Assembly (NCBI RefSeq): GCF_017168335.1
Contig: NZ_JABFAU010000003.1
Span: 136,589 to 200,588, forward strand
Direction of reading: 5' to 3'
Source: Rhodococcus sp. KRD162
Lineage (GTDB): Bacteria; Actinomycetota; Actinomycetes; Mycobacteriales; Mycobacteriaceae
DNA: 64,000 nucleotides
Below, piece after piece: positions 23,257-24,773 of this stretch (position 1 is its first letter; each line of letters starts with the position of its first letter). A model generated the notes under the pieces. It was not told the origin of the DNA. It was given only the letters and a program-made list of their open reading frames with translations, and searched no databases. The position numbers and the translations under genes are program-made.

Positions 23257-23514
23257 ATGAGCATCAACGACGACGACATCACCACTTCGGGCGGAGCCGC
23301 AGGCGAAGGCCCGGCCGACGGCGGATCGAACCCAGGCGGTCACGACGGCGGAGCAGACGGCTCGCCCGGAGCGGGCGAAGGCCCCGCCGACGGCGGATCC
23401 AACCCCAACGGACACGACGGCGGAGCAGACGGCTCGCCCGGAGCAGGCGAAGGCCCCGCCGACGGCGGATCCAACCCCAACGGACACGACGGCGGTGCGG
23501 ACGGTACCGCTTGA
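23257..23514 (+). CDS. Tandem-repeat small peptide, candidate substrate of the adjacent JmjC oxygenase
   Basis: 85 residues. The ATG at 23257 has GGAAGGA about 7 bases upstream. After a 15-residue leader (MSINDDDITTSGGAA) the protein is three tandem copies of a 24-residue unit, GEGPADGGSNPxGHDGGADG followed by SPGA, at residues 16-39, 40-63 and 64-85 (the last shortened to end in TA). It is very rich in Gly, Asp, Asn, Pro and Ala, with one His per repeat, no Cys, no aromatic residue and no membrane segment, so it is probably disordered. The stop overlaps the TTG start of the JmjC-type oxygenase (TTGA). Leader plus identical repeats plus a coupled modifying enzyme is the layout of a multi-core modified peptide; that function is inferred, not known to me from any named family. 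Confidence 0.75.
   Translation: MSINDDDITTSGGAAGEGPADGGSNPGGHDGGADGSPGAGEGPADGGSNPNGHDGGADGSPGAGEGPADGGSNPNGHDGGADGTA
23302..23511 (+). repeat. Three tandem 72-base coding repeats
   Basis: Units at 23302-23373, 23374-23445 and 23446-23511 (last shortened). Units two and three are nearly identical at DNA level; unit one differs by synonymous changes and a GGC for AAC codon. The unit length is a whole number of codons, so unit gain or loss keeps the frame. This points to recent expansion by recombination or slippage within a coding sequence. Confidence 0.9.
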
Positions 23515-24773
23515 TCACTGGGGCGGGCGGCGAGCGCGGATCGGATCACCGGTCCGCGCTTCGCCGTCTCACCGGCGTCGATCTCGACACTTTTGCCGAT
23601 CGGTTCTGGGGCGTCGCCCCCAAGCTCACCAGGTCCGCGGATCTGCCCGGATCGTTCGAGGACTTGATGACGGTCGACGCGGTCGACGAGCTCATTGCCG
23701 AACGCGGCGTTCGCACCCCGTTCGTACGCATGGCCAAGGACGGCCGCCTGGTGGACCGAGCGAAGTTCACCGCCTCGGGTGGGTTCGGGGCCGAGATCAC
23801 CGATCAGGTGGACTCCGGTGCCGTACTGGAATCGTTCGCGGCCGGAAATACTCTCGTGCTGCAGGGGCTGCACCGGCTGTGGCCGCCGCTGATCCATTTC
23901 GTCGGTGATCTCGTTCGAGAACTCGGCCACCCCGTCCAGGTCAATTCCTACGTCACACCCGCTGCCTCGCAGGGATTCTCACCGCATTACGACGTGCACG
24001 ACGTATTCGTCGTCCAGATCGCAGGCACCAAGCGGTGGACCGTTCACTCGCCGGTACACATGCATCCGCTCGACGACCAACCCTGGTCGGACCGGCGTTC
24101 GGCCGTCGAGGAGCGAGCATCGCAGACCTCCGCACTGGACGTCGTCCTCGAACCCGGCGACGTGCTCTATCTGCCCCGCGGTTGGATTCACTCCGCGCAG
24201 GCGCTCGGTACCACGACCGTTCATCTCACGATCGGCGTCGCGTCGTTCAACGACTACGACATCGCACAGCGCACCCTCGAAGCACTCGCCGATGTGGAAG
24301 CTCTGCGCGCGCCGCTTCCGGCCGGGCTGGACCCGACCGATCTCGAGTCCGTCGGTCCCCACGTCCGTCGAGTGCTCGATGCGATGCGCACCGCCCTCGA
24401 CGATATGGCCCGAGATCCGGAGTCGGTGCGCCGTCTCGCGAACCGACTCGCCGATCGCTACGACGCTCTCGTTCGCCCGGAACCGGTGCGTCCACTACGC
24501 AGTGTCACCGCAATGGAAGCACTCAGTGGCGAGGACTCCATCCGCCTGCGACCCGGCATCCTCGCGCGCATCACGCGCGGAGCCGAAGGGGTTTCGCTCG
24601 TACTTCGGAACAAGACCGTGACGATGCCACTTCAGTGCGCCGACGCCCTCGAGCACCTACTGGCCGGTTCGCCGTGCCGACTCGACCTGTTGCCCGGGCT
24701 GGACACCGACGACGCGGTGGTGGTCGCACGCAGGCTGATACGCGAGGGCATCGCCGTGTCGGTAACCCACTGA
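23511..24773 (+). CDS. JmjC/cupin_4-type 2-oxoglutarate, Fe(II)-dependent oxygenase
   Basis: About 420 residues starting at TTG 23511, which overlaps the stop of the repeat peptide. It belongs to the RoxA/NO66/MINA53 (cupin_4) group of JmjC oxygenases, which hydroxylate Arg or His side chains in ribosomal proteins. The metal triad is visible: H159-x-D161 in SPHYDVHDVFVVQ and H227 in GDVLYLPRGWIHSA; GTKRW (about 172-176) supplies the likely 2-oxoglutarate-binding Lys. The N-terminal RFWGVAPKLTR and the C-terminal winged-helix-like region (about 290-420) also fit the group. The usual ribosomal target gene is not adjacent; instead it is coupled to the repeat peptide, so that peptide is the best substrate candidate. 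Hydroxylation of the repeated His, Asn or Asp is an inference. Confidence 0.88.
   Translation: MITGAGGERGSDHRSALRRLTGVDLDTFADRFWGVAPKLTRSADLPGSFEDLMTVDAVDELIAERGVRTPFVRMAKDGRLVDRAKFTASGGFGAEITDQVDSGAVLESFAAGNTLVLQGLHRLWPPLIHFVGDLVRELGHPVQVNSYVTPAASQGFSPHYDVHDVFVVQIAGTKRWTVHSPVHMHPLDDQPWSDRRSAVEERASQTSALDVVLEPGDVLYLPRGWIHSAQALGTTTVHLTIGVASFNDYDIAQRTLEALADVEALRAPLPAGLDPTDLESVGPHVRRVLDAMRTALDDMARDPESVRRLANRLADRYDALVRPEPVRPLRSVTAMEALSGEDSIRLRPGILARITRGAEGVSLVLRNKTVTMPLQCADALEHLLAGSPCRLDLLPGLDTDDAVVVARRLIREGIAVSVTH

Follow-up and report, generated by a model that had tools for sequence, protein, structure and literature searches.

A 64,000-nucleotide stretch of the genome of Rhodococcus sp. KRD162 (contig NZ_JABFAU010000003.1, positions 136,589 to 200,588; this whole stretch is here called the window) carries a small gene for an acidic repeat peptide, the stop codon of which overlaps the start codon of a gene for a JmjC oxygenase. 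The features of this locus, which occurs as a single copy in the genome, are listed in Table 1. The peptide consists of a short leader and a tandem array of repeats, for which Tandem Repeats Finder reported 92% matches and a score of 349; the coordinates of the open reading frame (ORF) and the repeat finder agree with the original prediction, made from the DNA sequence, of a repeat peptide of this length whose stop (TGA, 23512-23514) runs into the TTG start of the oxygenase gene. In a scan of the window peptide, no Pfam or NCBIfam model was matched up to E = 1, and to that extent the statement that no named family with this pairing was known is supported.

The oxygenase matches the JmjC_2 family PF08007 (E 1.7e-29, 102.4 bits against a cut-off of 22), as do 46 of 46 of its homologues; no NCBIfam model was matched by it. 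The residues H159, D161, K174 and H227 are invariant among these 46 diverse homologues, and the HxD pair also in 51 of 51 sequences of a further alignment, so that the HxD...H iron triad and the lysine are retained as had been foreseen; Lys174 is presumably the 2-oxoglutarate lysine, a role that we carry over from NO66 and MINA53. The enzyme could be aligned with NO66 as far as its end, and in a structure comparison its whole-length predicted fold is of the NO66/MINA53 type, i.e. that of the ribosomal oxygenases (ROX). In the model, the C-terminal domain is formed by four strands followed by helices, in a block with a predicted local distance difference test score (pLDDT) >=90. The PF08007 domain, the iron triad with the 2-oxoglutarate lysine, the C-terminal winged helix and the overall fold place the enzyme in the ROX type.

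Table 1. Features of the peptide-oxygenase locus (positions of the window)
Feature	Position	Strand	Remarks
Promoter-like element GTTTGA-N13-CGTCAA	23173..23197	+	84 bp before peptide start; putative promoter
Acidic repeat peptide, candidate precursor	23257..23514	+	85 aa; ATG start, TGA stop
Leader MSINDDDITT with motif [IL]xD[DE]D[IM]xT	23257..23286	+	
Tandem repeat (GEGPADGGSNPxGHDGGADGSPGA)	23299..23504	+	72-bp period (24 aa), 2.9 copies
JmjC_2 (PF08007) 2-oxoglutarate oxygenase, ROX (NO66/MINA53) type	23511..24773	+	420 aa; TTG start overlaps peptide stop
Fe(II) ligands His159 and Asp161 (HxD)	23985..23993	+	invariant; aligned with HyD of NO66
Lys174, presumably 2-oxoglutarate-binding	24030..24032	+	invariant in 46/46
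Distal Fe(II) ligand His227	24189..24191	+	invariant in 46/46
C-terminal winged-helix domain, residues 343-418	24537..24764	+	from the model; proposed leader-binding site

Recurrence of the pair and selection on the peptide

The survey covered Actinomycetota and a plasmid collection. The enzyme was found in 61 of 101 genomes (Rhodococcus sp. KRD162 and 100 relatives, E <= 1e-10) and, in a sample of 396 genomes from the whole phylum, in 58 (E <= 1e-20); its distribution over Actinomycetota is wide but patchy. In the 30 loci L002-L031, which include that of the window, the peptide lies directly upstream in every case and has one to three repeats. Among named genomes, a second scan gave at least 556 confirmed relatives, the best 80 of which were taken as named loci; these belong to Rhodococcus, Dietzia, Herbiconiux, Cellulomonas, Curtobacterium, Gordonia, Mycolicibacterium, Leifsonia, Agromyces, Cryobacterium, Pseudonocardia, Williamsia and other genera, and all 80 carry DGGADG repeats upstream on the same strand, three of these loci being cut by a contig end and one partly masked. 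A strict test that combined the leader motif with composition was positive at 173 of 205 JmjC loci (some of them duplicates) and yielded 154 distinct peptides; among the 32 failures, 15 show repeats on direct reading, three reach a contig end (L102, L126 and L129) and 14 are without a recognisable peptide. When 23 genomes were probed for the peptide, it was found in four of four that have the enzyme and in none of 19 that lack it; the latter are part of the 40 enzyme-negative genomes among the 101, and very divergent repeats would escape the probe. These counts bear out a dedicated peptide-oxygenase pair, in which a candidate precursor gene adjoins the gene of a putative peptide-modifying enzyme, the arrangement expected of a ribosomally synthesized and post-translationally modified peptide (RiPP).

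The original prediction had relied on homologous oxygenases elsewhere keeping the peptide; 14 of the 205 loci have no recognisable repeat peptide, and the oxygenases of 13 of these are only distantly related (best segment with 27-41% identity). A tree was built with 67 of the 114 homologues from L002-L129, after a redundancy filter and exclusion of loci at contig ends; nine of the 14 loci without peptide are in this tree and five outside it. The presence of the peptide requires three changes over the tree, against a mean of 8.6 when the labels were shuffled, and none of 500 shuffles was as low.

The peptide frame is under purifying selection, and both the frame and its residues are retained. 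In three groups of sequences from the genus, of equal lengths within groups and comprising 29 of the 36 genus sequences, the ratio of nonsynonymous to synonymous substitution rates (dN/dS) was 0.047 (12 sequences, of a group of 13), 0.055 (12) and 0.105 (5), and the differences at codon positions 1/2/3 were 158/44/1222, 214/206/1796 and 36/28/185. Because dN/dS is low and the differences fall mostly on codon position 3, the ORF is far from what chance would give. The repeat frame is also conserved among relatives, as the original prediction required, and is broken in only two of the 80 named loci. Both breaks, in L174 (Mycolicibacterium pyrenivorans) and L188 (M. litorale F4), lie within the repeats and may reflect natural slippage or an assembly error. 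The sequence TTGA at the peptide stop, on which the overlap with the oxygenase gene depends in the window, occurs in 35 of the 36 genus loci printed and in 51 of the 173 loci overall.

Upstream of the peptide gene, the pattern GTTTRR-N13-YGTCAA occurs in 34 of the 36 genus loci at a distance of 69-116 bp from the peptide start, compared with a mean of 0.02 and a maximum of 1 in 200 shuffles, and in nine of 137 other loci, each of which is from Rhodococcus or Rhodococcoides or duplicates one that is. The element is possibly a promoter for an alternative sigma factor. When spacers of 12-14 are allowed, it has one match in the genome of Rhodococcus sp. KRD162 and the reversed control pattern has two; since the genome count is no higher than chance, nothing points to a larger regulon that shares this exact sequence. 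Iron control through IdeR-, Zur- or Fur-like boxes also gave no clear sign in 172 upstream regions, where the mean best mismatches against shuffled values were 9.5/9.1, 7.0/7.4 and 6.7/7.0, respectively, in a weak test that used consensus strings and one shuffle set.

Leader, core and accompanying genes

The 154 distinct peptides share the leader consensus [IL]-x-D-[DE]-D-[IM]-x-T, with I or L at position -2 in 141 of them, D at +0 in 149, D at +2 in 148, I or M at +3 in 149 and T at +5 in 136; positions +0 to +3 belonged to the search pattern, and -2 and +5 are independent of it. A short leader had been proposed for the window peptide, and a constant N-terminal motif followed by varying repeats is the layout found over the whole family. 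The number of repeats varies as well, as anticipated, with HDGGADG occurring 0 to 6 times per distinct peptide.

The composition of the cores differs from the pattern that the window peptide suggests. Ala, Asp and Gly are the only residues present in every one of the 154 distinct cores, followed by Ser (150), Pro (147), Thr (144), His (125, i.e. 29 cores are without it) and Asn (119); the peptide finder gave preference to frames in which D, E, G, A, S and T taken together are abundant, so that the contrast with His, Asn and Pro weighs more than the count itself. Cys is found in none of the 154 peptides. Asp makes up 17.5% of the core residues, with 4 to 34 per core, most often spaced by 2, 3, 4 or 9 residues and usually with Ala before and Gly after it. 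The segment GHDGG is present in 103 of the 119 distinct peptides of the clade nearer to the window and in 0 of the 35 of a divergent clade, whose repeats often resemble DGDATD or DADGTD; the conservation of GHDGG that had been predicted for recurring repeat peptides therefore holds in the nearer clade and not in the divergent one, and the His site is a feature of a clade, with Asp as the common denominator.

A third gene accompanies the pair in most of the loci: directly downstream of the JmjC gene and on the same strand, 150 of 209 loci (duplicates included) have a gene for a Suc_Fer-like protein, and three of three downstream proteins tested matched PF06999 (1e-15 to 7e-22). Examples of this gene are found at L141:7233-8132, L154:6481-7380 and L194:1441-2337. 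Its occurrence extends over the two large clades of the tree, and it is absent from all 14 loci without peptide. An alignment of 28 Suc_Fer-like proteins shows the motif CxHxxHDxCC, C8 and H165 to be invariant, and these Cys and His residues are compatible with the binding of a [2Fe-2S] cluster; we take the family to be kin of the yeast proteins Apd1 and Aim32, which are presumably [2Fe-2S] proteins. The window has no such gene, PF06999 has no match in the whole genome of Rhodococcus sp. KRD162, and the position downstream of the JmjC gene is taken by a convergent short-chain dehydrogenase gene. Since other genus members (e.g. L020, L021, L023, L027 and L030-L034) are also without the Suc_Fer-like gene, the core unit is formed by the peptide and the JmjC enzyme; the window holds a two-gene form, best read as a reduced form of the three-gene peptide-JmjC-Suc_Fer operon of many Actinomycetota.

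The six neighbours of the pair in the window were assigned by Pfam to a CDP-alcohol phosphatidyltransferase, two NUDIX proteins, a short-chain dehydrogenase, an acyl-CoA dehydrogenase and an AMP-binding enzyme, and neither a protease nor an exporter gene is among them. The claim that no transporter, protease or further tailoring enzyme lies next door is thus correct for the window, but the Suc_Fer-like gene lies next door at most of the loci. Two large clusters of neighbours at the named loci were recognised on reading as Suc_Fer genes and as antisense shadow frames.

Distant homologues were found in the plasmid collection, where 65 records matched; the 15 listed are all from Streptomyces, with an identity of 32% or less. 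On a Streptomyces clavuligerus plasmid (L246), a JmjC homologue with 29% identity has an S9 peptidase and an ABC transporter nearby and, upstream, a 48-aa peptide (L246:5844-5987) with the acidic leader LEPDEIEV and Asp-Pro repeats; this locus looks like a separate RiPP-like cluster. Another homologue is found on a plasmid of Streptomyces sp. NBC_00557 (L245), where two cupin genes are surrounded by peptidases of the S9 and M13 families, a carbamoyltransferase and a Zn hydrolase. A small upstream ORF of L245 holds FEDIEFIET. At L124, a small ORF whose stop lies 576 bp before the start of a Streptomyces-type JmjC homologue contains the leader-like EDEELEALSGG, which seems to us reminiscent of double-Gly leaders. 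The surroundings of the Streptomyces homologues support an ancestry in peptide modification, with Asp in the core; the finding that at 10 of the 14 loci without peptide no candidate small ORF is listed counts against such an ancestry.

Proposed modification and alternative explanations

We propose that the locus belongs to a RiPP-like modified-peptide operon, patchily distributed over Actinomycetota, in which the Asp repeats are hydroxylated by the JmjC enzyme, and we give this reading a probability of roughly 0.7; that the peptide is a substrate of the enzyme is somewhat firmer and we hold it to be very likely. According to this proposal, the peptide would be the dedicated substrate of the JmjC enzyme, the leader [IL]xD[DE]D[IM]xT would dock on the enzyme, most likely on its C-terminal winged helix, and the Fe(II)/2-oxoglutarate site would then act on the Asp-rich repeats, hydroxylating residues in succession. 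Asp would be the most probable target, giving beta-hydroxy-Asp, with the His of HDGG as an additional or alternative target in the clade of the window. The resulting peptide would be anionic and hydroxylated at multiple sites, and it could plausibly bind metal, although we regard metal binding as less likely than not. The Suc_Fer-like protein, present in most of the relatives examined, would perhaps act as a redox or iron partner, without which the lineage of the window manages.

A more far-reaching version seems doubtful. It supposes a new class of ribosomal peptides, spread over Mycobacteriales, Micrococcales and more distant classes of Actinomycetota, in which a ROX-type JmjC enzyme makes a poly-beta-hydroxyaspartyl, metal-binding polymer with the Suc_Fer [2Fe-2S] protein as partner, the product remaining in the cell and serving to handle iron or calcium, not as an antibiotic.

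Several observations weigh against the proposed modification of Asp repeats. The modification itself is predicted and not observed, and the choice of Asp follows from composition, obtained with a finder inclined to such residues; Asp as the main target is about an even wager, and in the clade of the window the frequency of GHDGG makes His a possible target. The C-terminal domain shows no sequence homology to the PqqD-type RiPP recognition element (RRE): hhalign against 23 PqqD sequences gave a probability of 2.6%, and two control regions of the same enzyme gave 7.1% and 0.1%. Such an element is frequent in RiPP systems without being required. PqqD is also missing from the 50 matches listed by the VIA-align structure comparison, which excludes nothing, and the domain may share the PqqD/RRE fold; the ROX winged helix is, besides, present in enzymes that act on ribosomal proteins. 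The 80 named loci, read with a crude ORF caller, have no recurring protease, exporter or immunity gene, and every neighbour family other than JmjC, Suc_Fer and the shadow frames is found in six of them at most. The Suc_Fer-like gene is not essential, because it is missing from the lineage of the window; two of the loci without peptide, L079 and the long-branched L122, are placed within peptide-bearing groups of the tree; and there are the two broken repeat frames. Because the modification is predicted and an exporter or protease was not found to recur, we class the system as RiPP-like and not as a proven RiPP; a protease or exporter encoded in the cluster is customary for RiPPs but no strict requirement.

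Among the alternatives, the one that fares best concerns the site and leaves the pairing untouched. The original prediction placed the modification on the His of NPxGHDGG; this residue, or the Asn or Pro next to it, would be the target and the divergent clade would have switched to another. The prevalence of GHDGG in the nearer clade speaks for it, and NO66 and MINA53 are by name His hydroxylases; however, the segment is absent from the divergent clade, His is also lacking in L045, L049, L052 and L061, which lie outside that clade, and single repeats read GQDGG, with Gln for His, in L200 and NAHDGG in L020. With Asp in every core and His missing from 29, the proposed His site is not upheld as the general one, and we estimate this alternative at a minor share.

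It is less probable still that the peptide is a partner of the enzyme instead of its substrate, i.e. an acidic, disordered activator, inhibitor or mimic that sits on the winged helix, while the enzyme in reality acts on a ribosomal protein, like NO66, MINA53 and YcfD. The whole-length fold of the enzyme, the strongly acidic and Gly-rich peptide and the lack of a recurring processing gene at the named loci would be in keeping with such a role. Against it, the leader is constant while the copy number and the sequence of the repeats vary, as in a leader and a core; the cores differ widely between clades yet retain Asp; and the distant homologue of S. clavuligerus is found near a peptide, a peptidase and a transporter. 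Finally, one might suppose that the small ORF serves as an attenuator, or as an upstream ORF that is translated into an irrelevant product, its repeats arising by replication slippage. This would suit the TTGA overlap in the genus and the two frame breaks but is highly improbable, as it is largely refuted by the changes at codon position 3 and a dN/dS of close to 0.05, the leader is the same across the phylum and TTGA is found at the stop of a minority of the loci.

Related systems and significance

The oxygenase resembles NO66, MINA53 and YcfD (ROX, PF08007) in its JmjC_2 domain, HxD...H triad, Lys, C-terminal winged helix and whole-length fold. It differs in that those enzymes have ribosomal-protein substrates, according to the titles of their entries, whereas the system of the window has an adjacent dedicated peptide gene; to our knowledge, no peptide gene adjoins the genes of NO66, MINA53 or YcfD. 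The third gene of the operon belongs to the Suc_Fer-like family PF06999, with its conserved Cys and His residues, and among the papers listed by a literature search none names sucrase ferredoxin or Apd1, nor was a link of this family to a peptide or a JmjC enzyme seen.

In the biphenomycin RiPP clusters, the JmjC- or cupin-type enzymes BipG, PbsQ and BpmG are described, in the passages available, as hydroxylating ornithine in a single short motif, and these clusters also hold a multinuclear non-heme iron-dependent oxidative enzyme (MNIO), a B12-dependent radical S-adenosylmethionine enzyme (B12-rSAM), an arginase and a protease (PMC12257519, PMC12707348). A JmjC-related enzyme with a ribosomal precursor peptide as substrate would be common to them and to the window, where that substrate is predicted; unlike theirs, the window peptide is Asp-rich and made of multiple repeats, and MNIO, B12-rSAM, arginase and protease genes do not accompany it. 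The available text of Bregman et al. 2025 (PMC12710340) mentions JmjC (PF08007) proteins that have an RRE-like domain, with homologues in bacteria that lie in 'RiPP-like genomic contexts'; the Pfam domain and the RiPP-like context are the same as here, and a winged-helix/RRE-like domain is claimed there, but the mention is of one sentence, and a precursor family, Asp repeats, a Suc_Fer protein and a bacterial taxon go unnamed in that text. Beta-hydroxylation of Asp in RiPPs is attributed, in the parts available, to MNIO or alpha-ketoglutarate-dependent HExxH (aKG-HExxH) enzymes (PMC13060819, PMC12636437); a ribosomal peptide with hydroxylated Asp, proposed for the window, would be the shared trait, with other enzyme families and precursors. 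As for JmjC, cupin or hydroxylase proteins, PMC10783134 holds one unrelated cupin passage and PMC9576775 none. Text searches of the literature for fragments of the peptide and for 'GGADGGADGG' gave no match, and the peptide family and the peptide-JmjC-Suc_Fer operon appear to be undescribed in a literature search that mostly excludes subscription papers.

The pair recurs across the phylum under strong selection. If the repeats are hydroxylated, the enzyme would represent a branch of the NO66/MINA53 oxygenase family that is bacterial and dedicated to peptides, which would bear on the kinship of peptide-modifying and ribosome-modifying oxygenases, and the product could possibly be a genetically encoded metal-binding polymer of tunable length.
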